From Christiangramia forsetii KT0803 (lineage in GTDB: Bacteria > Bacteroidota > Bacteroidia > Flavobacteriales > Flavobacteriaceae), in NCBI RefSeq assembly GCF_000060345.1, contig NC_008571.1, positions 1,178,001-1,242,000 on the forward strand: DNA of 64,000 nucleotides, read 5' to 3'. This document shows, one piece after another, positions 27,854 through 44,068 of the stretch (positions are counted from its first letter, which is position 1; the number at the start of each line of letters is the position of its first letter). A model generated the notes under the pieces. The model had not been told where the DNA came from, made no database searches, and saw only the letters and a program-made list of their open reading frames with translations. A program made the position numbers and the translations under genes.

Positions 27854-27920
27854 TTAGTAGATATTTAAGGTTTAAAATTCTGTCGATTATTTTGTATCGT
27901 TATTTATTAATATCTTGATT

Positions 27921-28886
27921 TTAAGCTTCTTGCCATAATTGTTGCACGGTGGCCAGGTCTTTTTGCATGGCATCAAAAACAAACTGCTTATCAACGGTAA
28001 TTTCAGATTTTCCTTTTTCAGCTCCACCCAGAGGATATTCCAGATGTAAAGAAACAGGAGGTTTTAAATCATAATCTTTCAGAAGTTTAAAATAACTTTT
28101 GAAGTCTACCATCCCTTCGCCTATCGGCACATTCACAACTTCCCATTTACCGTTTGTTTTTTTCCATTTAAAATCCTTTAAAACGATCGTTTTTATATGG
28201 TCTTTCAGTAACCTAAGACCATTCTCCCAGGATAAGCCACCATCTACCATGGCATGACGAATGTCGTATTGGGTCCCGAACCAATCTGGATTAACCGTTT
28301 CCAGAAGTTGTTTTACCTCCCAGAAAGTAGAACCGATACTTGTGCCCGCATGGTTTTGATAACAGCCAGTAATGCCGTATTGTTTATTTACCTCCCCAAG
28401 CTCGTTGATTTGTTGCTGGTAGATATCGATAGACTCCTGCATGGATCTGTCTTTATGATATTTGAACCAATCGCTTCTATAAAACTCTACTCCATTCTCC
28501 GCAGCTGTTTTGATAATTTTTAAATCATCTGTATTCTTAACATCACTTATGGTAGTGGTGATCATTTTACAGGACGATCCGGCTTCTTTTATATCCTGTA
28601 TGGCTTGAGGTAATTCAGTTTCAACATTTTCAGGTAAGATGTGACCTTTGGGGCGCACGGTCAGGTCCAACCCTTCAAATCCTAATTTCGCTGCAATTCT
28701 GGCAGCTTCTTTTATATCCAAAAACTGCAAATGTTTAGAGAAGAGATGGACTTCTAAAGGATCATCAGACTTATCAAAATTGAATATACTGAACGGAGAT
28801 GTGATCCAGGGCATAGCGATTACTGCCGCGCCTACATTTTTTATAAACTCTCTTCTTGGCATGTTCATATAATCAAAATTTAGCAT
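27921..28886 (-). CDS. Sugar isomerase/epimerase-like TIM-barrel protein
   Basis: A 321-residue xylose-isomerase-like TIM barrel with a twin-arginine-like signal near its start (MPRREFIKNVGAAVIAMPW), so probably exported. Visible barrel segments include EAARIAAKLGFEGLDLTVRPKGH, YQNHAGTSIG, WFGTQYDIRHAMVDGG and SLHLEYPLGG, the last three holding probable metal ligands. The start at 28886 may instead be the Met at 28862. The role in alginate breakdown is unknown; it could act on a keto-uronate sugar. It shares the promoter region with PL6. Confidence 0.85.
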   Translation of the reverse strand: MLNFDYMNMPRREFIKNVGAAVIAMPWITSPFSIFNFDKSDDPLEVHLFSKHLQFLDIKEAARIAAKLGFEGLDLTVRPKGHILPENVETELPQAIQDIKEAGSSCKMITTTISDVKNTDDLKIIKTAAENGVEFYRSDWFKYHKDRSMQESIDIYQQQINELGEVNKQYGITGCYQNHAGTSIGSTFWEVKQLLETVNPDWFGTQYDIRHAMVDGGLSWENGLRLLKDHIKTIVLKDFKWKKTNGKWEVVNVPIGEGMVDFKSYFKLLKDYDLKPPVSLHLEYPLGGAEKGKSEITVDKQFVFDAMQKDLATVQQLWQEA

Positions 28887-28986: not shown

Positions 28987-29038
28987 TTTGCAAGTCGAAC
29001 AAATATACATATATTTGGTAAACCAATTTGGTAAACCA
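28987..29038 (+). promoter_or_regulatory. PL6 promoter with tandem regulator sites
   Basis: TTTG at 28987-28990 and TATATTTG at 29010-29017, spaced 19 bp. Two copies of TTGGTAAACCA (29015-29025 and 29028-29038) start inside the -7 box with a 13-bp period. Binding there would block transcription. It lies in the divergent region shared with the TIM-barrel/PL7 unit. Confidence 0.75.
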
Positions 29039-29047
29039 GTTGAAATT

Positions 29048-31348
29048 ATGAAAAATATCTTATTTACTTTTTTTTTATTTGTATCCGGAATTAGCGTCGG
29101 TCAAGATTCTACAACGACTAAAAATCCTGTTACGAACATTTCAGAATTTAATAGTGCCGTGGAAAAAGCCGGGCCAGGTGATGTAATTACATTGGCCAAC
29201 GGGGTGTGGAAAGATGCAGAATTGATTTTTAAGGGAAATGGAACTAAAGACCAGCCTATTACCTTAAATGTTGAAAGTAAAGGAAAAGTAACTCTTGCGG
29301 GAAAATCGTCTTTAAAACTAGCAGGGGAATTTCTTATTGTAGATGGCCTTTATTTCAAAAACGGCTATACACCATCAAACTCGGTAATTGAATACAGGCT
29401 TGATGATGAAAATATTGCCAATAATAGCACGGTCCAGAATTGTGTCATTGAAAACTTCACCCAGCCGAGCAGGGATACAAAAGATCATTGGGTAGAACTT
29501 TGGGGGAGGAATAATGCCCTTAAGAATAATTATATCGCGGGAAAGTCAAATACCGGTCCTACCGTACGGGTTTTTCTGAAAGGAAATGAGAATATCAATA
29601 CCCATCACCAGATAACTCACAATTATTTCGGGGAACGACCACGAAAGGGAGGTCCGCATGGTGAAACTATGCAGATAGGTTCCAGTGAAACTTCGATGAC
29701 TCCAGCGTACGTAAATGTTTCTGAAAATTTATTTTATAGATGTAACGGTGAGGTAGAGATCATTTCCAGCAAGTCTAATTTCAATAGTTTTAAGAATAAC
29801 GTATTTTTTGAATCTGAAGGTTCATTGGTGTTAAGGCATGGGAATTACGCTACGATAGATGGTAATATTTTTATTGGGAATGATAATTCAGAATTTATAG
29901 GTGGTATTCGGGTAATCAATACCGGGCACTGGATCACCAATAATTATTTTTATAAGCTCAAAGGAACCGAGTTTAGGGCTCCCTTAGCAGTGATGAATGG
30001 AATCCCTAAATCTCCACTTAACCGTTATAACCAGGTAACCGACGTAGTGGTTGCTTATAATTCTTTTATTGATAATAAATCTCCGTGGCATTTTAGTGTT
30101 GGGTCTAATGTAGATAAAAGCGAGGTTTTGCCTGCTTCTGAAATTCGTTCTGCCAGACCTGAGCGGATACTGGTTGCCAATAATTTAATTTATAGTGAAT
30201 CGGAACAGAAACTTCCTGTGGTAGCCTACGATACGGTAGACGGTGTGAAGTTTAAAAATAATATTTTAAATAGTCCTAATGAGAGTGAGGTTCAGGATAA
30301 AGGAATGATAACGCAGGATTTTGAAATAAAACAGCTTTCAGAATATTTATATGCCCCTGCCGAAAATCTTAATGATGTTTATGATGGTTTTGATTTTGAA
30401 ACTATTGAGAAAGATCTCTTCGGAAATGATAGGACAGAAGATAACAGTATTGGAGCGGTTACTTTACCGGTCTCTAATAATGCAAAACTTGTAAATAAAA
30501 AATTATATGGTCCTGATTGGTTTAACCCTGAGATAGAAAAGAAAAAGGCTGAAGTAGTGCAGGTTTCAACTTCAGAAGAATTAATTAAAGCTTTACAAAA
30601 CGCAAAGTCGGGCGGCATAATCGAATTAAAGTCCGGAACTTATAAGCTTGAGAATTCGATTGTTATTGATAAAAGAATTAGTCTTCGATCAAAAAATAAG
30701 GCGAAACTGCAATTTTCAGAAAGTAATTCCACTCCTGCATTTCAAATGAACCCGGGAGGAAGCCTGAAAATTGAAAATATTGATCTAAGCGGAAATAAAA
30801 ACCGTGATGCTTTTGGGACTTTGAATGAAAATATGTCCAGCGCCTATAATTTATGGGTAGATAATTCTGAAATAAAGGATTTTAAAAATCTTCTGGAAGT
30901 CTCACAACGTTCTTTTGCCGATACCATTTCTATTACAAATTCAAGTGTTAAAGATCTTCAGGCGGGGATTAATCTTGCTGAGGAGACCGATGACAAAGGT
31001 GAATATAATGCCGAATTCGTTTATATAACCAATTCTGAGTTTGAAAATATCCAGAATGAAGTACTTGATTATCATCGTGGCGGTTATGATGAATCAACGA
31101 TAGGTGGCAATCTGGTCTTTACAGGTAATACCATCAAAAATTCGGGTACATCAGAAGCTACGGAGATTCTTTTAAAAACCAGGGGAATTGTAAATGTTGA
31201 AATGGCCAACAACAATTTTATTGATAATCCAGTGAAATTTATTGCGATTCTTTGGGGAGCCAAAGGTCAGGAGCCGGTGAATAATACTATTGAAAATTCA
31301 GGCGAGATTAAAGTGGAGGAAAACCTCAAGCAGAAATTAATGTACTAA
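29048..31348 (+). CDS. Alginate lyase, polysaccharide lyase family 6, two-domain
   Basis: A 766-residue secreted enzyme from the ATG at 29048 (signal peptide ending GISVGQ). The first half is a PL6 parallel beta-helix with GDVITLANGVWKDAEL, GGPHGETMQIG, and the catalytic Lys and Arg in ISSKSNFNSFKNN and GSLVLRHGNYATIDGNIF. The second half (about residues 500-766) is another beta-helix (SGGIIELKSGTYKLENSIVI), as in AlyGC-type enzymes. The longer in-frame reading upstream is not used because the regulator sites lie inside it. It probably attacks poly-M or poly-MG. Confidence 0.93.
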   Translation: MKNILFTFFLFVSGISVGQDSTTTKNPVTNISEFNSAVEKAGPGDVITLANGVWKDAELIFKGNGTKDQPITLNVESKGKVTLAGKSSLKLAGEFLIVDGLYFKNGYTPSNSVIEYRLDDENIANNSTVQNCVIENFTQPSRDTKDHWVELWGRNNALKNNYIAGKSNTGPTVRVFLKGNENINTHHQITHNYFGERPRKGGPHGETMQIGSSETSMTPAYVNVSENLFYRCNGEVEIISSKSNFNSFKNNVFFESEGSLVLRHGNYATIDGNIFIGNDNSEFIGGIRVINTGHWITNNYFYKLKGTEFRAPLAVMNGIPKSPLNRYNQVTDVVVAYNSFIDNKSPWHFSVGSNVDKSEVLPASEIRSARPERILVANNLIYSESEQKLPVVAYDTVDGVKFKNNILNSPNESEVQDKGMITQDFEIKQLSEYLYAPAENLNDVYDGFDFETIEKDLFGNDRTEDNSIGAVTLPVSNNAKLVNKKLYGPDWFNPEIEKKKAEVVQVSTSEELIKALQNAKSGGIIELKSGTYKLENSIVIDKRISLRSKNKAKLQFSESNSTPAFQMNPGGSLKIENIDLSGNKNRDAFGTLNENMSSAYNLWVDNSEIKDFKNLLEVSQRSFADTISITNSSVKDLQAGINLAEETDDKGEYNAEFVYITNSEFENIQNEVLDYHRGGYDESTIGGNLVFTGNTIKNSGTSEATEILLKTRGIVNVEMANNNFIDNPVKFIAILWGAKGQEPVNNTIENSGEIKVEENLKQKLMY

Positions 31349-31354
31349 TTCATC

Positions 31355-32431
31355 ATGAAAAAAATATTCATAGCCATATTCATATTTTCCGCTTTTTTTT
31401 CCTGTAAAGATAATACCGCAGGAACATCTAAAGAAATCGAACAAAAAGGCGATACAACAAAATACCCAAGTGATGTTATTCCATTTTTTGATCACTGGAA
31501 ATTAATATTGGGCGATGGTTCAAATGCTGGTGTTGCAAATAATTTTGAAGATGAAGATTTCTTTTATACTGAAACTGAAGATTCTGGGAACTGGATAGTT
31601 TTTAAGGCTCCCAATGGAGGAGACACGCATGGTACTTCAAACAATACGAGAACTGAATTAGCTCAAATTAAAAAATGGTATCCCGCAACCGCCGATGATA
31701 AACTTTCAGCTACACTCAAAGTAATGAATGTATCTTCTACCGGGGATGCCCGGGTAGCTGCTTCCTACTCGGTAGTTGTCGGTCAGATTCATAGCGCCGA
31801 TGGCCACGAGAACGAGCCGCTTAAAATATTTTACAAGAAATTTCCTGGTCATACTAAGGGGTCGGTGTTTTGGCATTATGAAATTAATACTGCCGGAGAT
31901 GATAATTCTGTACGATGGGATTTTTCCACAGCGGTTTGGGGGCATGATTTTTCGGTAGTTGGCCCTGATGAAAGCACGTATCCTGAAGAACCAGAGGATG
32001 GGATTGCTTTGGGTGAAGAGTTCAGTTATGAAATCGAGGTGAAAGGCGGTATTATGAACTTAAAATTCACTAGTGAAGAACATGAAACCAAATCCTTTAC
32101 AAAAAATCTAACCAAATCTGAATATTCCATAACTACTGAGATACCTAAGCAAACACAGGATTTATTTGTACCAGTTGGGCAGGATGGTGTGGAGCGTAAG
32201 AACGCGTATGCTGGCGAGGGATGTTTTTTTAAGTTGGGAGCTTACAATCAAACTAATGGAAAATCACCTATAGTAAATAAAAATTGGTGTTCCGGGGCAG
32301 AAACCCATGGAGGCGATATAGAAAAACAATATGCAGACGGGAACTATGCTGAAGTATGGTTTAAGGACGCAAGCATAACTATTAGTGATGCAGCCATTTC
32401 TAATAAAGCTTATTTTACTAAAAATGATTAG
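31355..32431 (+). CDS. Alginate lyase, polysaccharide lyase family 7 (second copy)
   Basis: A 358-residue lipoprotein (AFFSCKDN) PL7 enzyme with NTRTELAQI, VVGQIHSADGHENEPLKIF and CFFKLGAYNQTNG. It is highly similar along its length to the 26786-27853 enzyme on the other side of PL6, suggesting a duplication. It follows PL6 by 6 bp in the same operon. Its C terminus has about 10 extra residues. Confidence 0.93.
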   Translation: MKKIFIAIFIFSAFFSCKDNTAGTSKEIEQKGDTTKYPSDVIPFFDHWKLILGDGSNAGVANNFEDEDFFYTETEDSGNWIVFKAPNGGDTHGTSNNTRTELAQIKKWYPATADDKLSATLKVMNVSSTGDARVAASYSVVVGQIHSADGHENEPLKIFYKKFPGHTKGSVFWHYEINTAGDDNSVRWDFSTAVWGHDFSVVGPDESTYPEEPEDGIALGEEFSYEIEVKGGIMNLKFTSEEHETKSFTKNLTKSEYSITTEIPKQTQDLFVPVGQDGVERKNAYAGEGCFFKLGAYNQTNGKSPIVNKNWCSGAETHGGDIEKQYADGNYAEVWFKDASITISDAAISNKAYFTKND

Positions 32432-32808
32432 GCATTAGAGAATCAACAATCAAACAGCGTATTCCTAGGGGTGCCCATGTGCAATTCACTATTGTTTTGG
32501 TGCAGATGCAGTAAACCAATATACAGCGTAGGTTGCATATAAAGGAAGACATCCGGAAACTCTGTAGGCTACCAGCAATGCTGAAATCTTGACGCACACT
32601 CCTATAAAATTCGGTGCTAAGAAGATTTGCGTTAGTACAGTCTACCCAAATTTTGTCCTTGGAAGTTCATTTCAGGATAAACACACTATAAAAAATAAGG
32701 AGCTGCAAGAGCTGGAGGTACTGTTGGATTTTGCAGGTACTGCTTACGACGTTGCCCGGGTTGTTTATTTGTTTCTTCTGAAATTATTGGTTAAGTAAAA
32801 AATTATTG
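32432..32808 (+). other. Degenerate DNA between PL7 and PL17
   Basis: About 375 bp without an intact gene. A 69-residue reading at 32589-32798 contains KICVSTVYPNFV and FAGTAYDVARVVYLFL, loosely like the C-terminal part of a short-chain dehydrogenase, but the rest does not match and upstream frames are broken. A decayed SDR gene is possible; evidence is thin. Confidence 0.3.
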
Positions 32809-32836
32809 TACATTGGTAAACCAATTTGGTAAACCA
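32786..32836 (+). promoter_or_regulatory. PL17 promoter with tandem regulator sites
   Basis: TTGGTAAACCA occurs at 32813-32823 and 32826-32836, again with a 13-bp period. ATTG at 32786-32789 and TACATTGG at 32809-32816 are the best, weaker, promoter boxes (19 bp apart). It is 45 bp before the PL17 start. Confidence 0.7.
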
Positions 32837-32880
32837 GTTTTATTTTTTTAATTTCAACCTCAATTAATCAATAATATGAT

Positions 32881-35124
32881 ATGAGATATTACATAGCCTC
32901 CTTATTTTTAATATTAGTTTTTTCAGTAAATGCTCAGAAGAATCTGAAAAGTAATTCTTCGGGTTTAGTCCTTACTGAAGAAGGAGTGGAAAATATCCAG
33001 TCCAACCTGGGGACGGTATCCTTATTTGATCAGACCCTAAAGCAGGTAAAAGAAGAAGTAGATAAGGAAATGGCTCGGGATATCCAGGTTCCTGTTCCAA
33101 AAGATCTTGCCGGTGGGTATACCCATGAAAGGCACAAAAAGAATTATGCGACAGCACAAAAGGCTGGAGTGCTTTATAAAATTTTAGAGGAGGAAAAGTA
33201 CGCTCGATATATTAAAGAGATGCTCATGGAATAAGCCCGGCTTTATCCTGAACTTCCATTACATCCTGAAGAACGATCTTATGCAAGAGGTAAATTATTC
33301 TGGCAATCACTTAACGATTCCAACTGGCTTGTAGCGATGAGTCAGGCTTATGACAGTATATATGACTGGTTAAGTACTGAAGATAAAAAGTTCTTAGAAG
33401 AGAATTTATTCCATCCTTATGCCGATTTCCTTTCTGAAGGAAACCCTAAATTCTTTAATCGAATTCATAATCATAGCACCTGGGGAAATGCAGCCGTGGG
33501 TATGATTGGTTTGGTTATGGATAATGATGAACTGGTGAACAGGGCATTATATGGACTAGAGAATACGAATATAGATAAAGCCGCCAGGGATAATGATGGC
33601 GGTCTAATTCAGCAGCCCGGACAGAAAGCCGGTTTTTTGGCTAATATTGAAGAAGCTTTTTCTCCTTCCGGATATTATACTGAAGGTCCTTATTATCAGC
33701 GGTACGCCATGTATCCTTTTATGTTATTTGCTAAGGCGTTGCAGAACAAAAGGCCTGAACTCAAAATCTTCGAATATAAAGATGGGGTTCTTATTAAGTC
33801 TGTAGATGCGTTATTGAATTTAACCGATGCCGATGGGGAATTCTTTCCATTAAATGACGCTCAGAAAGGCATGTCATTTTTCAATAAATCAGTAATAATG
33901 GCGGTAGATGCGGCTTATTATTACGGGGAGCAGGATCCAAGGCTTTTATCGGTTGCAAAAAAGCAGGGAGAGGTAACACTTGATGATGCGGGATTGGCAG
34001 TTGCCCTTGGGTTGAAAAATGATAAAGAGAAAGAATTTCAAAAAAAATCTATTGTACTTAGCGACGGTTCAAAAGGAAATAAAGGTGGCGTAGGAATATT
34101 GCGGATCACAGAAGATGAAAGTATCTTTTCATTAGTAATGAAATTCACTTCTCAGGGCGATAGCCACGGTCATTATGATAAACTTTCTTATTCATTTTAT
34201 AATGATGGGGAAGAAGTGATTCAGGATTACGGCTTTTCCAGATTTGTAAATATTGAACCCAAGAACGGCGGAGGTTATTTAAAGGAAAACACTAGCTGGG
34301 CAAAACAAAGTATCGCTCATAATACCATAGTTCAGAATGAAACATCGCATTTTAATGGAGATTTCGATACCGGAAATAAATATCATTCAGAAAAATACTT
34401 TTCAGATTTTTCAAAGGATAATGTTCAGATCATAAGTGCTAAGGAAGAGAATGCTTATCCAGGCACTAAGATGCAACGAACCATGGCGTTGATCAAAAAT
34501 GACATATTTCAGAAGCCTGTGCTGGTAGATATATTCAGGGTAAAAGGAGATCAATCAAATCAATATGACTTACCCTTTTATTATTTCGGACAGATTATAG
34601 AAACCAGTTTTGAGTATGATTCACCTGAAAAGCTGGAAAAATTAGGTTCAAAAAATGGATATCAGCATCTATGGAAAGAAGCTTCTGGTGCTGCGGAAGC
34701 TGGAAATGCCAGATTTACCTGGTCTGAAAATAACAAATTTTATACGCTCACTAGCGCAACCATGCAGAATGATAGTCTTATTCTGGGCAGGTTGGGAGCT
34801 TCAGATCCTGAATTCAATTTAAGAAGAGATCCGGTTTATATCTGGAGAAAAAGTAATACTAAAGACGCGGTGTTTGCTTCGGTTCTGGAACCACATGGCA
34901 GTTATAACCCGGTAACCGAATTAGGGAATAATAGCTTCAGCCAGGTTCAGAATGTTGAGGTATTACTGGATAGTGATGAATATACCGGTATTGAAATTAC
35001 CGGAACAAATAAAAATAAGCTTTTACTCGTAATTTCAAATAATGATGCTGAAGACCAGCATAATATAAAAATAGGTAACCGTGAAATTTCCTGGAAAGGT
35101 AATTACACATTAATTGAAAATTAA
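32881..35124 (+). pseudogene. PL17 oligoalginate lyase gene with an in-frame stop
   Basis: The frame gives a 747-codon PL17/heparinase II/III-like protein: signal peptide (SLFLILVFSVNAQ), an N-terminal (alpha/alpha) toroid with GLVLTEEGVENIQ and VPKDLAGGYTHERHKKNY, then RIHNHSTWGNAAVGMIGLVM, SPSGYYTEGPYYQRYAM, and a C-terminal beta-sandwich with KFTSQGDSHGHYDKLSY. Codon 118 (33232-33234) is TAA in KEMLME*ARLYPELPLHP, where relatives have an aromatic residue. A restart at 33337 would lack the signal and the first 152 residues. Intact, it would release unsaturated monomers. Confidence 0.85.
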
Positions 35125-35129
35125 ATAAA

Positions 35130-35474
35130 ATGAAAGATTTAGGTACAAGTAAAGAATTCTTAAAATCCAAAGAAGTTGAAAAAGAAACCGTTGGAGAAGG
35201 TGTTCAAAGACAAATCATGGGCTATGATGATAAAATTTTATTAGCCAAGGTTGAATTTGAAAAGGGTGGGGTAGGACCAATGCATGAGCATCACCATTCA
35301 CAGGTAACCTACGTGGTAAGCGGAAAATTTGAACTTACTATAGGAGATGAAACTAAAATGATGGAAGGGGGAGATTCTTTTTATATACCTCCTCATAAAA
35401 TGCATGGTGCAATCTGTAAAGAGAAAGGAATTCTTATAGATGTTTTTAGTCCTATTAGAGAAGACTTTTTCTAA
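35130..35474 (+). CDS. kdgF: KdgF-like cupin, unsaturated uronate processing
   Basis: A 114-residue single-domain cupin. Motif 1 is GPMHEHHHSQVTYVVSGKFEL and motif 2 is GGDSFYIPPHKMHGA, giving the three His metal ligands. KdgF converts 4,5-unsaturated monouronates from pectin or alginate to the open keto form (DEH). It starts 6 bp after the PL17 gene, so the two are coupled. If the PL17 stop is real, its natural substrate supply changes. Confidence 0.85.
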   Translation: MKDLGTSKEFLKSKEVEKETVGEGVQRQIMGYDDKILLAKVEFEKGGVGPMHEHHHSQVTYVVSGKFELTIGDETKMMEGGDSFYIPPHKMHGAICKEKGILIDVFSPIREDFF

Positions 35475-35553
35475 AAGCTCAGAATATTAAACAATAATTA
35501 AAGAATTGTAAAAATTTATATAAGATTATTTTTTAGTTAACAATTAATTAATA

Positions 35554-35595
35554 TATATTTGGTAAACCAGATTGGGAAACCAAATTGGTTTACCA
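35554..35595 (+). promoter_or_regulatory. susC promoter with three tandem regulator sites
   Basis: TATATTTG at 35554-35561 with TTTT at 35531-35534 (19 bp upstream). Three sites follow at a 13-bp period: TTGGTAAACCA 35559-35569, TTGGGAAACCA 35572-35582 (one mismatch) and TTGGTTTACCA 35585-35595 (the complement form). This is the largest site cluster in the locus. The promoter lies about 275 bp before the susC ATG. Confidence 0.7.
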
Positions 35596-35631
35596 GAAAA
35601 GTTCTTTAAAATTTTAATTTAGGAAATAAAA

Positions 35632-35659
35632 AAAAGGATAGGTGCACGCCTATCCTTTT
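35632..35659 (+). terminator. Intrinsic terminator in the susC leader
   Basis: AAAAGGATAGG at 35632-35642 pairs perfectly over 11 bp with CCTATCCTTTT at 35649-35659; the descending arm ends in a T run. It lies between the susC promoter and susC. It could be the terminator of an upstream transcript or a leader attenuator. Confidence 0.7.
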
Positions 35660-35693
35660 ATTAAAACTTCATTGAGAGAAGTTATTTAAACAC

Positions 35694-35764
35694 ATGCCTA
35701 TTACTTGATCGTAAACATGTACCACAAAGGTACAATTTCATAAGTAACCTACATAGGCATTTTT
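35694..35764 (+). ncRNA. Structured susC 5' leader element
   Basis: An outer stem ATGCCTAT (35694-35701) with ATAGGCAT (35753-35760), a second stem TACTT (35702-35706) with AAGTA (35742-35746), and an inner hairpin GTACC (35719-35723) with GGTAC (35729-35733) are nested in one 67-nt fold, followed by TTTTT at 35760-35764. It is 77 bp before the susC ATG. The fold could be a terminator, a small RNA end or a regulatory leader; I know no matching named family. Confidence 0.5.
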
Positions 35765-35840
35765 CATTTACCATTTCCTTATTTAAGTATTACGCTTTTC
35801 GCGGTTAGATTAATTATCAATTTTAATAAATGAAAAACTT

Positions 35841-38800
35841 ATGAATTTGAAGAAAACAGCAGTTTTTTGTATGGCCTTACTTTGCCATCTAGCATTAATT
35901 GCTCAGGAAAGTTATTCACTTTCAGGAACCGTGACTTCTCAGGGGGACAATGTGCCTCTTGCAGGGGTAAACGTATTAATCCAGGGATCTGCTACCGGAG
36001 TAGTAACCGATTTTGATGGAAATTACGAAATCGATGTAGTGGAGGGGGACATACTGGAGTTCTCCTATTTAGGCTTTGTGAGTCAGCAAATCACTGTTAC
36101 AGATCAAGAATCACTTAATGTATCTTTAGCGGCAGACTCCCAACTACTGGACGAGACCGTAGTAATTGGTTATGGTACGAGAAAGAAAAGCCATTTAACT
36201 GGTGCGGTATCCAGTGTTGTTAATGAAGATTTAGACCAATTACCAGTTGCCAGAGTAGATGATGCCCTTGTAGGGCAAATTTCTGGGGTAAATATTCAGG
36301 CTACAGAAGGTGAAGCCGGGTCTGCACCAACTATTCGTATTAGGGGAACAGGGTCATTGACCGGAAGTTCAGCTCCATTGATTGTAGTAGACGGACTTGT
36401 CGTAGATAATGATTTTCTTGGAAGTTTAGATATGAGTGAAGTAGAATCTTTCGATGTCTTAAAGGATGCAGCGTCAGCCGCTATTTATGGATCTCGAGGA
36501 GGTAACGGTGTTATTTTAATTACCACTAAACAAGGTAAAGCAGGGAAAACAGTATTTAGTTATCAAGGATATACAGGTTTTAAAGAGGCAAGACAAAGTG
36601 ATGCCTATTATTTCTCTGTTGCTGAAACTCTCGCGGAAGAACTCGCAGTTACGGGAGAACTATCAGAACGTTCCCAATATATTCAGCAAATTGGGATTGA
36701 CAGGGATTATCAGGATATAATCTTTGATGGAGGTATTATTCAAAACCATTCATTGAGTGCACGTGGAGGTACCGAGAACACAAAATTCAGTATTTCTCTT
36801 GGCTATCTTCATGATGAAGGGGTTCTTATAACTGATGACTATAAAAGATATAATCTAAGGTTAAAACTGGATACCAAGGTTAGTGACGAATTCAGATTTG
36901 GAGGTAACATTGCGCCTTCTTATACGAATAGAAGAAGGTTTGATGGTTCCACGCATGATATTCTACGTCAGGGTCCCTGGTTGCCAGTCTACCATGACGA
37001 GAACACTATACAATATGTAGATCGAAATGTATATCCAGATGTGCAGGTAGGAGATTATGCAAGACAGCGCCACTTTGATAATTATGATTTATTTGGTGAC
37101 GGTAACTTAGTAGACATAAGTGATACATCGAATCAAAATCCTGCGGCAAAAGTACTGGAAAGAGATGAAAATGATTATAAGTTTAAAGTCTATGGTAATT
37201 TTTATGCCGACTATGAAATTATGGATGATCTTAATTTAAGAACTACGCTTTCGGGGGATTACCAGCATACCATGAGAGATAGATGGCAGGGGGTTGAAGC
37301 AAGTAGAAATGGAGCTTCAGATGCCAGTTATGATGTAGAGAATGAAAAAAGGATTCACATGGCTTCGGAAACTTATCTTACTTACGATAAGAATATTGAT
37401 AAACATGAATTTGATGTGGTAGCAGGGATCACATTTGAAAAATGGGATTATGAAGGAAGTTTCGCATTTGGAACGGGTTATACATCAGATTTAATCAGGA
37501 CTTTATCTGCTGCAACAGTAGCTTCCGAAATAGAATCCTGGGTTTATGAAGAAAGATTTCAAAGTTATTTTGCCAGGTTAAATTACGCGTATGATGATAA
37601 ATACCTTGCTTCGTTTAGTTATCGTCGTGATGGTAGTTCAGTTTTTGGAGCTGATTCAAAATATGGAGATTTCCCGGCACTTTCTTTAGGATGGGATATT
37701 GCTGAAGAAAATTTCTTACAGAATGTTGATTTTTTAAGTAGCTTTAAATTTAGAGTTAGTTACGGGTTTACCGGGAATAAAGATTTGGATACCGATAGTG
37801 ATATCATAGATCTTTATCCATCCTTACCATTACTAGGACCATCTTCAGCTACTATTGGAGGAGCAGTACAACCTGCTTTTATATCCTTGAATATAGCTAA
37901 TCCAGATCTTCAGTGGGAACGTTCAAAGGAGATAAATCCTGGCCTTGACTTTGGTTTTTTCAAAAACAGAATTACAGGTTCTCTTGATTATTATAAACGA
38001 ACCAGTGATCAGTTATTACTTTTTAATCCTATTTCAGCGAGCACTGGATTTAGAAATGCATTGGTGAATATTGGAGAAGTTGAGAATACTGGTATTGAAG
38101 TGGAACTTCGAACCAGAAATATAGCAAACTCTAATTTCTCATGGAATACCACCATTCTTGCTTCTAAAAATGAAAATGAACTAACAGATTTTGCAGATTC
38201 TAATGGACAGATTGGAATTGTTGATGATAAAAGAGCTGCAGAATGGATTAATTTAGAAGGTCAGCCTATTTCGTCCTTCTATGGTTGGGTTGTGGACAGA
38301 GATATTCCGAGGGAATTACGTGAAAGACCTTACTTTCCGATTGGTGCGGAAGCCCAGGATGTGTATGTAAAAGATTTAAATGGAGATGGGGTCATAGACG
38401 ATGATGATAAGACAATCTTAGGAAATCCCTATCCGGATCTTGTATGGAGTGTGACCAATGATTTTAGAATTGGTAACCTTGATATTAGCTTTCTTTTCCA
38501 GGGTAGTCATGGAGCTGAAGTTAGAAATATGGGAGACCAGTATATTTTCAACCATTTCAATAGTGGGGCAGATTTTGATCCAGCCATCACTCCTGATCAG
38601 GATTTCATACGAGAGAAAATCTTTACCGATGATATTATTCAAGATGCTTCTTATATAGCACTTAGAAATGTGAATGTAGGATATAATCTACCGGTAACAC
38701 TTACCTCAAAAATAGGTTTAACGAGTATGAGAATTTACGCTGCGGGACAGAATCTTAAATATTGGACAGCAGATGATTACACAGGTTTTAATCCAGAATC

Positions 38801-38894
38801 TATTGATAATACCTCACCTACAACGTATGGATATCAAAGAGCTGGTTCCCCGATCTTTAAAACTATTTCAATTGGGATAAATGCTGATTTTTAA
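35841..38894 (+). CDS. SusC-like TonB-dependent outer membrane transporter
   Basis: A 1017-residue protein: signal peptide (residues 1-21), CarboxypepD_reg-like domain (about 25-105, SGTVTSQGDNVPLAGVNV to EFSYLGFVSQQI), plug domain (about 110-225, VVIGYGTRKKSHLTGAVSS, then AIYGSRGGNGVILITTKQGK), then a 22-strand beta-barrel ending GINADF. It imports alginate oligomers across the outer membrane using TonB energy, with SusD as lid. It starts the SusCD-SGBP-PL7-PL7 operon. Confidence 0.95.
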   Translation: MNLKKTAVFCMALLCHLALIAQESYSLSGTVTSQGDNVPLAGVNVLIQGSATGVVTDFDGNYEIDVVEGDILEFSYLGFVSQQITVTDQESLNVSLAADSQLLDETVVIGYGTRKKSHLTGAVSSVVNEDLDQLPVARVDDALVGQISGVNIQATEGEAGSAPTIRIRGTGSLTGSSAPLIVVDGLVVDNDFLGSLDMSEVESFDVLKDAASAAIYGSRGGNGVILITTKQGKAGKTVFSYQGYTGFKEARQSDAYYFSVAETLAEELAVTGELSERSQYIQQIGIDRDYQDIIFDGGIIQNHSLSARGGTENTKFSISLGYLHDEGVLITDDYKRYNLRLKLDTKVSDEFRFGGNIAPSYTNRRRFDGSTHDILRQGPWLPVYHDENTIQYVDRNVYPDVQVGDYARQRHFDNYDLFGDGNLVDISDTSNQNPAAKVLERDENDYKFKVYGNFYADYEIMDDLNLRTTLSGDYQHTMRDRWQGVEASRNGASDASYDVENEKRIHMASETYLTYDKNIDKHEFDVVAGITFEKWDYEGSFAFGTGYTSDLIRTLSAATVASEIESWVYEERFQSYFARLNYAYDDKYLASFSYRRDGSSVFGADSKYGDFPALSLGWDIAEENFLQNVDFLSSFKFRVSYGFTGNKDLDTDSDIIDLYPSLPLLGPSSATIGGAVQPAFISLNIANPDLQWERSKEINPGLDFGFFKNRITGSLDYYKRTSDQLLLFNPISASTGFRNALVNIGEVENTGIEVELRTRNIANSNFSWNTTILASKNENELTDFADSNGQIGIVDDKRAAEWINLEGQPISSFYGWVVDRDIPRELRERPYFPIGAEAQDVYVKDLNGDGVIDDDDKTILGNPYPDLVWSVTNDFRIGNLDISFLFQGSHGAEVRNMGDQYIFNHFNSGADFDPAITPDQDFIREKIFTDDIIQDASYIALRNVNVGYNLPVTLTSKIGLTSMRIYAAGQNLKYWTADDYTGFNPESIDNTSPTTYGYQRAGSPIFKTISIGINADF

Positions 38895-38921
38895 TCATAT
38901 AGAATTTTAAAAAACATTATT

Positions 38922-40346
38922 ATGAATATAAGAATATACTTACTCTTAGGAATTACCATGATGACTCTGGTTTCGTGTGGGAAAGATTTTTTAGAACCTG
39001 AACCGGAATCTGCGATTTCTGCAGAAGGCTATTTTCAGAATAGCGAACAACTGGAAACTGCGGTAATTGGTATGTATGATGCTATCCAGGGTGTAAATTC
39101 AAACGATCTGGACGATAATTTCAGCATTCAGCGAGAATTTTATATCACAGAAATGCGTAGCGATAATACACGTACCAAATCTCGTGAAGGCGAAGCAGCC
39201 CAATTTGAAAATTATAGAGTCACTACCAGTAATGGTATCGTTACTAATTATTATATAAGTTATTTTGAGATTATTTATCGAGCTAATTTAGTATTGGCAA
39301 ATCTTGATGCCGCCAGTGAAGAAGATGCTGCTCAATTTGAAGCAGAGGCAAAATTTGTAAGGGCTTATGCGTACTTTAATCTGGTAAGATTATTTGGACC
39401 TGTGCCTCTAATAGATGAATTAATAGGGCCTTTAGAAAAAGAAAAGGCTTACACTCGAGTTGCAGAAAGTCAGATTTATGATTTGATCATTTCTGATCTT
39501 CAAACTGCTATATCAGGTCTTGACAATATGTTTGTTAACAGAGCTTCCAGAGCAGCGGCTCAAACTTTTTTAGCTAAGGTATATCTTACTAATGAAAATA
39601 ATTATACCGAGGCTCAGACGCTGTTAGAATCTGTGATTAATAGCGGAGATTATTCCCTTGAATCAAATTTCAAAGATGTTTTTTATAATGAAAGAAATGG
39701 CGAAGTGATCTATGCTGTAGGTTATACCTCAGACATTACCTCAGACAGCCAGAATTTTTCTGCTGAAATGTTGAATTCTGTAGGAAGAACAAGTGGTGTG
39801 AATTATGTAACTGCAGATGCCAGAATAGCACTGGACGCTAAAGGGGGAAATAGAACAGAATATTCCTATAGGCTGGATGAAGCACAACCAACGCAGTACC
39901 AGGTGGCAAAATATATACCGAACGGTGATGATGCCCTTGGGATAGAGCCAACGTCCAGTAATCCGGAATTAGCGGGTAACGACTGGATCGTGCTAAGATA
40001 TGCTGATGTTTTGCTGCTACATGTAGAAGCTATTTTAGCAGGTGGCCAGGAAACAAGCTCTTCTGCGGCCCTGGATTCTTTTCAAAAAATTCGTGATCGA
40101 GCTGGTTTAACAGATGCTGTGACAAATATTACGAAACAGGATTTACTGGAAGAAAGACGTGTAGAACTGGCATTTGAAAATCACAGGTTTTTTGATCTGG
40201 TTCGATTTGGCTTAGCACAAGAAGTATTATCAGCTTTTTCAGATGAAAACGGCTATGATTTTAGTGCGACAGATTTGTTACTGCCTATTCCGCAGAGAGA
40301 GATTAACCTGAGTAATGGCTTAATGGAACAAAATCCAGGATACTAG
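38922..40346 (+). CDS. SusD-like glycan-binding lipoprotein
   Basis: A 474-residue surface lipoprotein (lipobox TLVSCGKDFLEPEPES) with the SusD/RagB all-helical TPR fold. Typical segments are EAKFVRAYAYFNLVRLFGPVPL near residue 150 and RRVELAFENHRFFDLVRFG near residue 420, ending LLPIPQREINLSNGLMEQNPGY. It forms the lid of the SusC channel and binds alginate oligosaccharides. It lies 27 bp downstream of susC. Confidence 0.95.
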   Translation: MNIRIYLLLGITMMTLVSCGKDFLEPEPESAISAEGYFQNSEQLETAVIGMYDAIQGVNSNDLDDNFSIQREFYITEMRSDNTRTKSREGEAAQFENYRVTTSNGIVTNYYISYFEIIYRANLVLANLDAASEEDAAQFEAEAKFVRAYAYFNLVRLFGPVPLIDELIGPLEKEKAYTRVAESQIYDLIISDLQTAISGLDNMFVNRASRAAAQTFLAKVYLTNENNYTEAQTLLESVINSGDYSLESNFKDVFYNERNGEVIYAVGYTSDITSDSQNFSAEMLNSVGRTSGVNYVTADARIALDAKGGNRTEYSYRLDEAQPTQYQVAKYIPNGDDALGIEPTSSNPELAGNDWIVLRYADVLLLHVEAILAGGQETSSSAALDSFQKIRDRAGLTDAVTNITKQDLLEERRVELAFENHRFFDLVRFGLAQEVLSAFSDENGYDFSATDLLLPIPQREINLSNGLMEQNPGY

Positions 40347-40370
40347 AAAAATCTAATAAAAATTTTTAAA

Positions 40371-41324
40371 ATGAATACGATAATAAATAAAACCCTTATT
40401 CCAGGATATTACAAACTTTTGTTTGTCATATTCAGCATGGGAGCATTAGTCTCTTGTGATTACGAATACGAACTACCGGAAACCGGATCTATTGCTGATA
40501 AAACACCTCCTTCAGCAAACTTTTCTGCTTCCCAAAGTGATACAGATTTTCTAACCTTTAATTTTGCCAACCTTTCAAATAGTGCCACAGATTATATGTG
40601 GGATTTTGGAGATGGCAATACTTCAACAGAGCTAGATCCATCCAATACGTTCCCAGATGAAGGGACTTATACGGTTAGTTTAACTGTGTCAGATAAATTA
40701 GGAGTTACAGATACTTTTACTTCTGAAATTTTAGTGGAGGAGCCACCAGTACCCGCAGCAATTACACCATTTATAGGTGAACCAGGCTTTGAAGATGGAA
40801 GCGAGGCCTGTGGAGATGGTCAGGATGGTAGAGATTGTTGGAGACTGAGTGGTGCTAGTATTCACCAGATCACGAGTTCAGATGGTAGGGGAGACACCCA
40901 GGCTGCAAAATATCCTGAAAGTACTACAAATGCCCGCCAGTCTTATCAGGCAATAACCGTTTCTCCTAATACTAAGTATATTTTCACTGCATTTTATGCG
41001 CTGACGGGTGATGGGGATTCTGTTAGAGTTTCAATTATAGACGGTCAGTTATCAAATTTTGATGAATTTGAATCGGCTACTTTATTAGCACAGGAAAGTG
41101 GTACTACTAATGATGGTAAAGGAAATTTCAATACCCTTATTGTAGAGTTTGAAACCGGTGCCAATGGTGAAATTTCTATGTTATTTGATAGTGATAATGC
41201 TGAAACAGCATATATCGATGATGTCTCAATCATACCAGTTGTAGAGGAAGAAACTGAAGGCGAAGAATCAGAAGAAGAGGAAGAGGCCGAAGGTGATGGT
41301 ACTGGAGAAGGAACTGAAGGATAA
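40371..41324 (+). CDS. PKD-domain surface lipoprotein, probable alginate-binding protein
   Basis: A 317-residue lipoprotein (ALVSCDYEYE). A PKD domain lies at about residues 45-125 (YMWDFGDGNTSTELDPSNTFPDEG), then a carbohydrate-binding-like beta domain (about 135-290) with four Cys near its start (EACGDGQDGRDCW), then a 30-residue tail of almost only Glu and Gly. Position after SusCD fits a surface glycan-binding protein. Its stop overlaps the next start (TAATG). The acidic tail is unusual beside a polyanionic substrate. Confidence 0.8.
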   Translation: MNTIINKTLIPGYYKLLFVIFSMGALVSCDYEYELPETGSIADKTPPSANFSASQSDTDFLTFNFANLSNSATDYMWDFGDGNTSTELDPSNTFPDEGTYTVSLTVSDKLGVTDTFTSEILVEEPPVPAAITPFIGEPGFEDGSEACGDGQDGRDCWRLSGASIHQITSSDGRGDTQAAKYPESTTNARQSYQAITVSPNTKYIFTAFYALTGDGDSVRVSIIDGQLSNFDEFESATLLAQESGTTNDGKGNFNTLIVEFETGANGEISMLFDSDNAETAYIDDVSIIPVVEEETEGEESEEEEEAEGDGTGEGTEG

Positions 41325-42250
41325 TGAGGATGTTTATAAAAAAATCTTCATCTGTTCAGAAAATTTCAATGAGCATTTTCATACTTGGTTTTGCCTGGCT
41401 TTCAATTCAATGCCAGGGATCAGGAACTGCTGTAAAAAATGGTTCAGAATCTAAAACCAATAATACTGCAGGAAAGTATAAACTGCCTAATGTTGACCTT
41501 TCAAATTGGAAGGTCACCATTCCGGCAGGACAGGGTAAAGGTGGCGCCATGAGTGTGGAGCCACCAGAGATCCTGGATTATGCCTCTAATGAAACCCTGA
41601 AGCCTTACATGTTTAATGATTCAACTTCCGGAGCTTTGGTGTTCTATGCCTATCCCAGTGATGCAACCACTGCGAATACAAAATATTCAAGGTCTGAATT
41701 ACGGGAGCAGATGGTGGCAGGTGACGATGATGTTAACTGGACCTTTAAGGAAGGTGGGAACTTGAAGGCGACCATCGAAATGGAAGATGTATCACGTGAT
41801 GAAGAAGGGAAATATCATAAAGTGATCATCCTTCAAATTCACGGAAGGTTGACCGATGAGCAAAAAGAACAGATTGGTCAAAAGGATAATAACGCACCGC
41901 CAATCCTTAAAGTTTACTGGGATAAAGGTAAGATCAGGATCAAAACCAAGGAATTGAAGTTTTTAGGAACTAAACCTGAAGGTATTTTATATGAAGAGGC
42001 CTGGGGCGACGATGAAGGTTACACCTTTGAAGAAGAAGTTGGTTTTAAAAAATTCGATATGGAAATTGATGTATCAGATGGGAAATTGGTAGTCTCTTTG
42101 AACAATAATGAATTTCATACTTATGATAACATTCATATGGAGAAATGGGGAGTTTTTGAAAATTATTTCAAAGCCGGGAATTACCTGCAAACAAGAGATG
42201 ATAATGCCTTTGCAAAAGTAAAATTCTATGATCTCAAAGTATCTCATTAA
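41324..42250 (+). CDS. Alginate lyase, polysaccharide lyase family 7 (third copy)
   Basis: A 308-residue PL7 lipoprotein (WLSIQCQGSG). Active-site strands are visible as YSRSELREQM near residue 125, VIILQIHGRLTDEQ near residue 165, and ENYFKAGNYLQ near residue 285. It belongs to a different PL7 branch from the two copies flanking PL6 (QIHG instead of QIHS). The start may be the Met at 41330. It is translationally coupled to the PKD protein and to the next PL7 gene. Confidence 0.92.
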   Translation: MRMFIKKSSSVQKISMSIFILGFAWLSIQCQGSGTAVKNGSESKTNNTAGKYKLPNVDLSNWKVTIPAGQGKGGAMSVEPPEILDYASNETLKPYMFNDSTSGALVFYAYPSDATTANTKYSRSELREQMVAGDDDVNWTFKEGGNLKATIEMEDVSRDEEGKYHKVIILQIHGRLTDEQKEQIGQKDNNAPPILKVYWDKGKIRIKTKELKFLGTKPEGILYEEAWGDDEGYTFEEEVGFKKFDMEIDVSDGKLVVSLNNNEFHTYDNIHMEKWGVFENYFKAGNYLQTRDDNAFAKVKFYDLKVSH

Positions 42251-42251
42251 T

Positions 42252-43169
42252 ATGAAAACTATTAAGCACATATTGCGAAAGCTTAATCTGGGTCTTTTAG
42301 TCGCAGGTAGCGTGATTTATATGGGATGTGAGAAGGATGATACAGCAGATGTAGTTGAATCCCCTCCCATTGTAGAAGAAGTACCAGAGGAGAAGCCTGC
42401 TGAAAACGATTATAAATTACCAGAAATAGATCTTAGTAATTGGAAAGTAACACTTCCCATTGGAAATCCATCTGAAGTGGAACCGCCAGAAATTCTGGAC
42501 TATGCCACTAATGAGAATTTAAAAAGATTTATGTACAATGATTCTACAGATGGGTCTTTAGTTTTTTATACCTATCCTGAATCTTCTACTGCAAATTCCT
42601 CTTATTCCAGAACAGAACTTCGGGAGCAAATGCAACCAGGTAGTAATAACAAGAACTGGACTTTTGAGGAAGGTGGTAAAATGCGAGGCAGGCTTGCAGT
42701 TCCTGAAATATCTAAAGACAATGACGGGGATTTTCATCGGGTTATTATCATGCAAATTCATGGAAGACTTACAGATGAACAGAGAGATCTTATAGGAGAA
42801 GATGATAACAATGCTCCTCCAATTTTAAAGATCTACTGGAATAATGGACGGGTTAGAGTAAAAACGAAAGTTTTAAAAGAAACTACAGCTTCAGATCAGG
42901 AAATATTACATACTGATGCCTGGGGGGACGATGAAGGTTTTAATTTCTCGGAAGAAGTTGGTCATGAAGCCTTTACCCTGGAAATAAAAGTGACTGAAGC
43001 AAAAATGGAAATTATCCTGAATGACGATGAGACAGTAGTATATGATAGTAAACATATTCAGAGGTGGGGGATTTTTGAAAATTACTTTAAAGCTGGGAAT
43101 TATCTGGTAAGTACCGATGAAAATGCTTTTTCTTTTGTGAAATATTACGAATTAGAAGTTATCCATTAA
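42252..43169 (+). CDS. Alginate lyase, polysaccharide lyase family 7 (fourth copy)
   Basis: A 305-residue PL7 lipoprotein from the ATG at 42252, one base after the previous stop (lipobox VIYMGCEKDD). It shows YSRTELREQM, VIIMQIHGRLTDEQ and ENYFKAGNYLV, and is a close tandem relative of the third copy. A Glu/Pro-rich linker (VEEVPEEKPAEND) joins the lipid anchor to the catalytic domain. A strong hairpin ends the operon downstream. Confidence 0.92.
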   Translation: MKTIKHILRKLNLGLLVAGSVIYMGCEKDDTADVVESPPIVEEVPEEKPAENDYKLPEIDLSNWKVTLPIGNPSEVEPPEILDYATNENLKRFMYNDSTDGSLVFYTYPESSTANSSYSRTELREQMQPGSNNKNWTFEEGGKMRGRLAVPEISKDNDGDFHRVIIMQIHGRLTDEQRDLIGEDDNNAPPILKIYWNNGRVRVKTKVLKETTASDQEILHTDAWGDDEGFNFSEEVGHEAFTLEIKVTEAKMEIILNDDETVVYDSKHIQRWGIFENYFKAGNYLVSTDENAFSFVKYYELEVIH

Positions 43170-43198
43170 TTTGAGAGATAAATTTTGTTTGAGTGGCC

Positions 43199-43244
43199 TT
43201 ATTAGTGATCCATCCGGTGGACGCACCGGTGGGATCGCTAATAA
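43199..43244 (+). terminator. Hairpin ending the susC operon
   Basis: TTATTAGTGATCC at 43199-43211 pairs with GGATCGCTAATAA at 43232-43244 (one wobble), and the inner CCGGTG/CACCGG extends the stem. Strong stem without a long T run. Confidence 0.75.
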
Positions 43245-43276
43245 TTAAAAATTGGTTGTAATTAAATGAACTAAGC

Positions 43277-43328
43277 TTTATAACTAAGATTATTTTTTAT
43301 AAATTTGAATAACCAGATTGGTTAACCA
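43277..43328 (+). promoter_or_regulatory. Promoter of the GntR gene with regulator sites
   Basis: TAAATTTG at 43300-43307, with TTTA at 43277-43280 19 bp upstream. The sites TTGAATAACCA (43305-43315, three mismatches) and TTGGTTAACCA (43318-43328, one mismatch) keep the 13-bp period and the same offset from the -7 box as at PL6 and susC. This supports autoregulation. Confidence 0.65.
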
Positions 43329-43357: not shown

Positions 43358-44068
43358 ATGAAAGTAGATGGATATACGAAAATTGAAATTCAGCAGCAAA
43401 CGCGGAATGAGATTTTGGGTAAAATACGAGAGTATATAAATTTTAAGAATTTAGAGCCTGGCGATAAACTGCCTTCAGAACGAATGCTTTCTGAAAAATT
43501 TGGCGTAAGCCGTAATAATTTAAGAGAAGCTATTCAAACTTTAGAATTCTACGGAATATTGGAAAGTGTTCCACAAAGCGGAACCTATCTGGCCAATATC
43601 GGCGTAGTTGCGCTAAACGGAATGATCTCTGATATTCTAAGCCTGGCAGATCCAGATTTTAAATCACTAGTGGAAACAAGGATTTTATTAGAATTGAAAA
43701 CGGTTCGTCTGGCAGCAACAAGACGTACGGAAACGCAGCTAGAGCATATGAAAGAAACGCTGGAAGCCTATAGTTCCAAAGCTTTAAATGGAGAAGATGC
43801 TGTTCAGGAAGATCTTTTATTTCATTTAGCTATTGCGAAAGCCAGTGGTAACAGTACTATGAACACATTTATGCTTACAATTACTCCTGAAATCATTACC
43901 AATTTTGCTAAATATCATGTTTGTGATGAAAACCAGGCATTTCTTGGAATAGAAGAACATAAAGCCATTCTGGATGCTATCGAGGATAAAGATCCGTCCA
44001 GAGCAAAGGAAAAGATGAAATTACATTTTAGAAGTCTGTATAAATACTGTTATAATGTAGATATCTGA
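43358..44068 (+). CDS. FadR/GntR-family regulator, probable regulator of the alginate locus
   Basis: A 236-residue protein with an N-terminal GntR winged helix (about residues 15-75: LEPGDKLPSERMLSEKFGVSRNNLREAIQTLEFYGILES) and a C-terminal FCD all-helical ligand domain (about 90-225: LVETRILLELKTVRLAA, DLLFHLAIAKASGN, EEHKAILDAI). The FCD group senses small carboxylates such as uronate or keto-sugar acids. Its place between the uptake and catabolic genes, and the shared palindromes at four promoters, make it the best candidate regulator. The ligand is inferred to be DEH or KDG. Confidence 0.9.
   Translation: MKVDGYTKIEIQQQTRNEILGKIREYINFKNLEPGDKLPSERMLSEKFGVSRNNLREAIQTLEFYGILESVPQSGTYLANIGVVALNGMISDILSLADPDFKSLVETRILLELKTVRLAATRRTETQLEHMKETLEAYSSKALNGEDAVQEDLLFHLAIAKASGNSTMNTFMLTITPEIITNFAKYHVCDENQAFLGIEEHKAILDAIEDKDPSRAKEKMKLHFRSLYKYCYNVDI

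Follow-up and report, generated by a model that had tools for sequence, protein, structure and literature searches.

Palindromic units at a 13-bp pitch as probable AusR-type operators of the Christiangramia forsetii alginate locus, and a predicted antisense RNA opposite the susC leader

The alginate locus of Christiangramia forsetii KT0803 lies within the 64,000-nucleotide stretch of DNA analysed here (the window: positions 1,178,001 to 1,242,000 of contig NC_008571.1, the single contig of a 3,798,465-bp genome). Our subject is a short palindrome, TTGGTnnACCA, that recurs at four promoters of this locus, together with a small RNA predicted to be made opposite the leader of its susC gene. Pfam matches identify the genes: a PL6 lyase of the chondroitinase-B family, whose start codon at 29048 lies downstream of its copies of the palindrome, PL7 lyases, a PKD protein, pieces of a PL17 lyase, SusC (the TonB-dependent receptor, 35841-38894, plus strand), SusD and, at 43358-44068 on the plus strand, a GntR-family regulator with an FCD domain (Pfam GntR 3.6e-17, FCD 8.2e-25). 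Beyond the regulator lie genes for an MFS transporter, an SDR, a PfkB kinase, a KDPG aldolase, a fructose-bisphosphatase and a LacI regulator.

A preliminary description of this DNA had counted two, two, three and two copies of the palindrome, or of a close variant, at PL6, PL17, susC and the regulator gene, and all of them are where it placed them, with every step from one unit to the next being 13 bp. All four arrays are on the plus strand: at the PL6 promoter (29015-29038, units starting at 29015 and 29028), at PL17 (32813-32836; 32813 and 32826), at susC (35559-35595; 35559, 35572 and 35585) and at the regulator gene (43305-43328; 43305 and 43318). The last of these had been described as a pair of weaker copies. 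More exactly, it consists of a perfect unit preceded by a unit with a degenerate left half-site, a form shared with the closest relatives (L215, L216 and L218). TAnnTTTG, the consensus of the flavobacterial -7 box (PMC9723704), starts 5 bp before the first unit at PL6, susC and the regulator gene, as the preliminary description had it. The box is TATATTTG at both PL6 (29010-29017, plus strand) and susC (35554-35561, plus strand). The PL6 box overlaps the first operator unit in a register that is kept in relatives, and a TTTG is located 19 bp upstream of it (28987-28990). At PL17, inspection of the sequence shows a -7-like TACATTGG (32809-32816, plus strand) of the form TAnnTTGG in place of the box. 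The reading frame of the PL17 lyase (32881-35124) is itself broken by a TAA codon in frame at 33232-33234. This may point to decay of the gene in KT0803, or the base may be a sequence error.

How far do these sites stand out from chance? A scan of the whole genome with the two-unit pattern, allowing up to three mismatches, finds the four sites and nothing else (five forward and three reverse-strand readings, all of these same sites), and the same pattern written backward, as a control, has no match anywhere in the genome at that tolerance. Single units behave differently. The 11-mer with at most one mismatch occurs 83+74 times in the genome, as compared with 99+108 times for its backward control, and with at most two mismatches it is found 45 times in the window, as compared with 45.2 expected from shuffles. 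Four exact single units elsewhere in the genome (L009, L010, L011 and L018) have no -7 box at the operator register. The single unit being at chance level, the signal resides in the pairing and in the 13-bp pitch. Equal frequency in unrelated regions, which the preliminary description had named as the outcome that would speak against the motif, is thus seen for single units; for pairs it is not.

The association of operator and regulator was followed through a family sample of 299 Flavobacteriaceae genomes, 74 of which have an orthologue of the regulator at a cut-off of E <= 1e-25. Strict pairs (the strict unit pattern twice, with any gap of 0-30 bases) occur in 61 of the 299 genomes, and the backward control occurs in one. 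Crossing the two lists by hand places strict pairs in 60 of the 74 genomes with the regulator and in 1 of the 225 without it (Fisher 4e-48); the lone regulator-less genome, G193, has a pitch of 12 bp. Eighty stretches of DNA from relatives were fetched, 79 of them centred on regulator genes and one on an array. The scan of related alginate loci that the preliminary description had proposed bears out its 13-bp period, exact close pairs in these stretches being 13 bp apart in 122 of 140 cases and 26 bp apart in 17. A relaxed rule gives 178 arrays at 13 bp in 78 of the 80 stretches and none in one dinucleotide shuffle of each; at other pitches between 10 and 30 bp it gives at most 9 arrays each, except for 76 at 26 bp. 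Counting the window as the 81st source gives 182 arrays, in 79 of the 81, and 175 of these can be oriented (three are duplicates from an overlapping stretch and four have no assignable gene). A further 80 named loci, partly from the same genomes, have arrays in 77, with 92 exact pairs at 13 bp and a -7 box at the operator register, on either side, in 115 of 125 arrays. Outside the Flavobacteriaceae, AusR-like genes (43-53% identity) were found in seven stretches (L302-L308) from five genomes that belong to other families in the class. No unit pair was found in two of these seven stretches. The operator unit is kept, and its pitch is 13 (at two promoters), 14, 15 (in a triple), 16 or 22 bp in this small sample; two of the genomes have two AusR-like paralogues each, with differing pitches (13 and 14 in one, 15 and 22 in the other).

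The arrays follow a simple grammar. In 150 of the 175 oriented arrays TAnnTTTG stands at an offset of -5 from the first unit, the next-commonest offset accounting for 5 of 175. The same register holds in 72 of the 75 susC arrays and, at PL17 in relatives, in 16 of 18. The first unit therefore lies over the last part of the -7 box, with the later units over the start region, which is the position of an initiation-blocking repressor. The number of units follows promoter identity: there are three at susC in 56 of 75 arrays and three or more elsewhere in 13 of 100. The 120 bp before the regulator gene contain an exact unit in 52 of 80 loci; it frequently stands alone or has a degenerate neighbour. 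Lone units are seldom placed at the -7 register (2 of 74 exact singles). The preliminary description had suggested that the number of units may set promoter strength; if the regulator is a repressor, as AusR is, then unit number would instead set the depth of repression. In the window, a PL7 lyase gene and a sugar-epimerase-like gene (26789-28886, minus strand) diverge from PL6 and share its intergenic region. Nine arrays in relatives are assigned to the epimerase-like gene, and in five of them the -7 box of that gene is 32 bp past the start of the first unit.

The GntR/FCD protein encoded at 43358 had been put forward as the candidate binder, and both the co-occurrence of arrays with its orthologues and a published system in Zobellia support that choice; it is likely, judging from the sequence comparisons, that it binds all four sites. 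Zobellia galactanivorans AusR (Dudek et al. 2020, NAR, cited in PMC7874173, PMC8286568 and PMC8073546) is described as a GntR repressor of alginate genes whose operator occurs in single, double and triple copies and whose DNA complexes are inhibited by metabolic intermediates (PMC7874173). The likeness, which is one of description, extends to a GntR-family regulator gene inside an alginate polysaccharide utilization locus (PUL), to an operator in one to three copies at the promoters of alginate genes (in the window and in relatives) and, as far as that account goes, to control of most of the alginate genes. The regulator assignment would then be right but not new, the protein being probably a conserved member of the Zobellia AusR system. 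To that system as described, the loci analysed here add a fixed -7 register, a set of three units at susC and the predicted antisense RNA. No Zobellia-named record is among the 80 regulator-like loci listed; the nearest named relatives of the regulator, among the matches listed, are from Christiangramia portivictoriae (92%), C. lutea (86%) and Gillisia mitskevichiae (83%). The sole other genome of the same genus in the family sample, G266, has no match to the regulator, the operator or the antisense RNA; two other Christiangramia species carry all three. A gene of the phage-integrase family (50799-52130 in the window) adjoins the alginate locus, and this, together with the absence from G266, suggests that the locus may move between genomes or be retained in a patchy way.

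At susC there appears to be more than an operator. A predicted antisense small RNA faces the susC leader at 35628-35718 on the minus strand, 33 bp past the operator array. It is supported by a covariance model, R1, and by the fold, with the 5' end placed by a minus-strand -7 box of the TAnnTTTG form, TACCTTTG, at 35725-35732 that was recognized in the sequence and in the alignment of leaders. Two hairpins make up its conserved part: H1 (35632-35659, minus strand), an intrinsic terminator followed by a T run, which emerges from both the terminator scan and covariation, and H2 (35665-35683, minus strand), which rests on covariation and fold. R1 matches 35628-35692 on the minus strand with 63.9 bits (E 5.4e-10), and the RNA of the window folds at -21.6 kcal/mol (z -3.58). 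Counted from the box to the final T, the RNA would be 70-101 nt long in 36 sequences, and 91 nt long in the window; the sense and antisense -7 boxes of the window are ~178 bp apart. A stricter terminator scan of 35480-35845 finds one site only, and that is H1 on the minus strand. The plus-strand R1 match in the window (38 bits, E 3.1e-4) was set aside as the palindromic terminator seen from the opposite side. In the window no Rfam match attains the gathering score of its family, and 14 Rfam matches in 35540-35900 at E <= 5, every one falling far short of that score (the best of them the L20 leader, E 0.0084, with 24.7 of the 58.7 bits), are taken as chance.

The leaders of susC genes are long (a median of 257 nt from array to start codon in 75 arrays) and those of the relatives have a common two-hairpin block. 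On the minus strand the order is -7 box, a variable part, H2 (mostly with a C-rich loop), H1 and the T run. Among 68 leaders of 150-340 nt, 57 match a simple search for H2 and 51 could be aligned, the other 6 being misplaced or too divergent; 50 of the 51 aligned leaders served to train R1. A minus-strand -7 box is present in 38 of these 51 leaders, the window's included, and a plus-strand box in none, with ~7% expected from mononucleotide shuffles. On the minus strand, 38 of 51 leaders have a T run of 7 or more residues after H1; on the plus strand, where 47 leaders were measured, the run never exceeds 5. When cells other than Watson-Crick pairs are read on the minus strand, there are 52 G-U and 4 A-C. 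The -7 box, the T run and this asymmetry all point to the minus strand. Covariation supports the pairing: both partners have changed in 6 of 18 pairs, pairing holds in 96.4% of cells and none of 500 shuffles reaches any of the five measures, while sliding the partners by 1-3 columns leaves 1-3 pairs with double changes and 45-64% of cells pairing. In susC leaders of the long class (L104:9038-9110, for example), tiny ATG-to-stop frames (ATG AAA ATA TAA) were seen by eye to recur between array and hairpins; these might encode leader peptides, or might have arisen by chance where the DNA is AT-rich.

The distribution of the antisense element falls within that of the regulator. Strong R1 matches (E <= 1e-5) are found in 57 of the 74 regulator genomes and in none of the 225 others. 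Since many of the 57 genomes trained the model, their recall is not independent evidence, but the lack of matches in the 225 others is. A further 18 genomes have matches between 1e-5 and 1e-3, 7 of them with the regulator (at least 4 of these matches being in the susC leader) and 11 without it, and the 11 are presumed to be noise. In the stretches, 59 of 75 susC arrays have an opposite-strand R1 match in the leader, 50 of these being from the training set of the model and 9 from outside it. The genome of C. forsetii has one strong match; after its other-strand reading the next has an E of 0.005, and the remainder are weaker. In a class-wide sample of 247 genomes, R1 at E <= 1e-4 matches the window's own genome and none of the 246 others. 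A general element of susC leaders was considered and rejected on these grounds, there being one strong match in the genome and none in the rest of the class-wide sample. Two stretches (L148:16369-16510 and L170:16407-16581) show a triple operator and the antisense element immediately before the regulator gene, no susC being assigned in the space between; the locus may be rearranged there.

As a kind of RNA, the closest functional counterparts would be DonS and the other PUL-associated cis-antisense RNAs of Bacteroides, which are 78-128 nt long (Cao et al. 2016, described in PMC7366714), are encoded opposite a susC homologue and lower its expression (PMC7366714). The predicted RNA of C. forsetii would likewise be short and opposes the 5' region of a susC homologue. 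Its estimated lengths (70-101 nt among relatives) overlap the range of the DonS group in part, and for a promoter and terminator of its own the window offers a minus-strand -7 box and H1, with no conserved -33 element. By description, the predicted RNA differs in belonging to another bacterial family and to a GntR-controlled alginate PUL, and in being one conserved structure across many genera. FopS of Bacteroides thetaiotaomicron, a set of 14 paralogous small RNAs with common targets, represses SusC-like transporters (PMC11697453). The predicted RNA is unlike FopS in having a single strong match in its genome and no clear trans targets near gene starts: a search there for targets of the conserved loop gave 2-3 matches without H2-like hairpins, as compared with 0-2 for reversed words, and hence no clear support. 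Away from gene starts two of the three loop words are in excess (18 vs 4 and 31 vs 13, in all), perhaps as hairpins missed by the filter. A cis role is favoured over a trans role for the predicted RNA on these sequence comparisons. A literature search, most subscription papers being outside its reach, found no account of an antisense RNA for alginate PULs, and what it found on antisense RNA for Gramella forsetii and Zobellia galactanivorans does not look to concern this element; the gene is apparently undescribed so far.

Taken together, these observations make it probable, in our judgement, that the 13-bp palindromes are AusR-type operators and that the second layer at susC is an antisense RNA. 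We infer the following mechanism. One dimer of the AusR-type regulator would sit on each TTGGTnnACCA unit, with the three final bases of the -7 box inside the first unit and the remaining units extending downstream across the start site, and the bound repressor would block initiation at PL6, PL17 and susC and, more weakly, at its own gene. A breakdown product of alginate would release it. At susC the second layer would be the antisense RNA, made from the opposite strand just downstream, with its own -7 box and terminator, and either pairing or colliding with the susC leader transcript; residual expression of susC would be held down in this way.

A number of observations weigh against this explanation or against parts of it. 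Strict pairs are lacking in 14 of the 74 regulator genomes; stretches were fetched from 13 of these 14, and all 13 carry arrays by the relaxed rule. Sixteen of the 75 susC arrays have no antisense match, so that the antisense RNA is not essential to the operator system. An exact minus-strand -7 box is missing in 13 of the 51 aligned leaders, and no conserved -33 element is seen upstream of the box in the 36 sequences. The pairing of H2 is partly circular because H2 served to place the leaders, although H1 was not so used. A single pair, at columns 142/156, supplies 27 of the 52 G-U cells, leaving 25 to 4, and the sequences are related. When terminators are defined more loosely (a hairpin and at least 4 T in 6), the plus strand carries one in 30 of 73 leaders and in 1 of 73 shuffled leaders, suggesting that in some of the relatives H1 may terminate transcription in either direction. 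Finally, an N-terminal extension of the kind found in NanR, to which we return below, is absent from the regulator: only 16 residues precede its Pfam GntR domain, which starts at residue 17.

The conserved structure might act on the plus strand instead, as a riboswitch-like element or an attenuator in the susC mRNA. The plus-strand leader of the window does fold well (35567-35860, z -4.43), leaders are long, and the looser terminator matches just mentioned would suit an attenuator. We nonetheless regard such an element as unlikely, the excess of G-U over A-C cells favouring the minus strand, the T run being the longer there, the stricter scan finding the window's terminator on the minus strand only, and the -7 box in the leader interval likewise being confined to that strand. 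It seems more doubtful still that the hairpins are a mere bidirectional terminator insulating susC, with no regulatory RNA involved. H1 alone would stop minus-strand transcription and, in some of the relatives, is terminator-like whichever strand is read, but H2 and the minus-strand -7 box that precedes it are conserved as well, and any minus-strand transcription that reaches the hairpins is already antisense to susC.

The identity of the protein that reads the palindromes, and its manner of doing so, also allow alternatives. The LacI-family regulator of the same locus (49246-50271) is encoded in the alginate gene cluster, and LacI proteins bind palindromes too. That it is the binder here strikes us as highly improbable: its homologues were detected by tblastn in 2 of 81 sources including the window, most stretches ending ~2-3 kb past the regulator start, while arrays are present in 79 of 81, and genome-wide it is the GntR gene that the arrays track. 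A separate proposal concerns the mode of binding only and is compatible with AusR-type operators and an antisense RNA: the multi-unit arrays could be occupied by independent dimers, steric packing setting the 13-bp pitch. For the cooperative or side-by-side dimers that the preliminary description had suggested, NanR of E. coli is a precedent, being likewise a GntR-type repressor on a repeated operator; three NanR dimers bind GGTATA repeats, cooperatively through a 32-residue N-terminal extension, and are weakened by a sugar effector (PMC8012715), whereas the regulator here would face TTGGTnnACCA units. In a search against Protein Data Bank (PDB) sequences the NanR match begins at NanR residue 39 and query residue 22. 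An AusR-type regulator that lacks the extension fits independent dimers, as does the use of 14, 15, 16 and 22 bp besides 13 by related regulators outside the family. The near-invariance of the pitch within the Flavobacteriaceae fits a specific contact instead, and we would place independent dimers just short of an even chance.

Conceivably, susC is held by a conserved two-layer lock in which a triple AusR operator faces an antisense promoter making a structured RNA of 70-100 nt, so that uptake would be switch-like; in addition, the operator unit would be ancient and its pitch specific to lineage or paralogue, and spacing, more than sequence, could serve to separate the paralogous AusR-type regulators of a single genome. 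For this larger picture the arguments seem to us evenly balanced. What the analysis adds to the published AusR system is its extension across the family together with a grammar of unit, pitch, -7 register and three units at susC, by which alginate regulons become readable from sequence alone. If the antisense RNA is confirmed, then control of SusC at the level of RNA or of transcriptional interference, known from gut Bacteroides, would also operate in marine Flavobacteriaceae. Antisense control would there be layered on an easily studied repressor, and the purpose of a second off-switch for a PUL transporter would become directly testable, and in a marine strain that is harmless.

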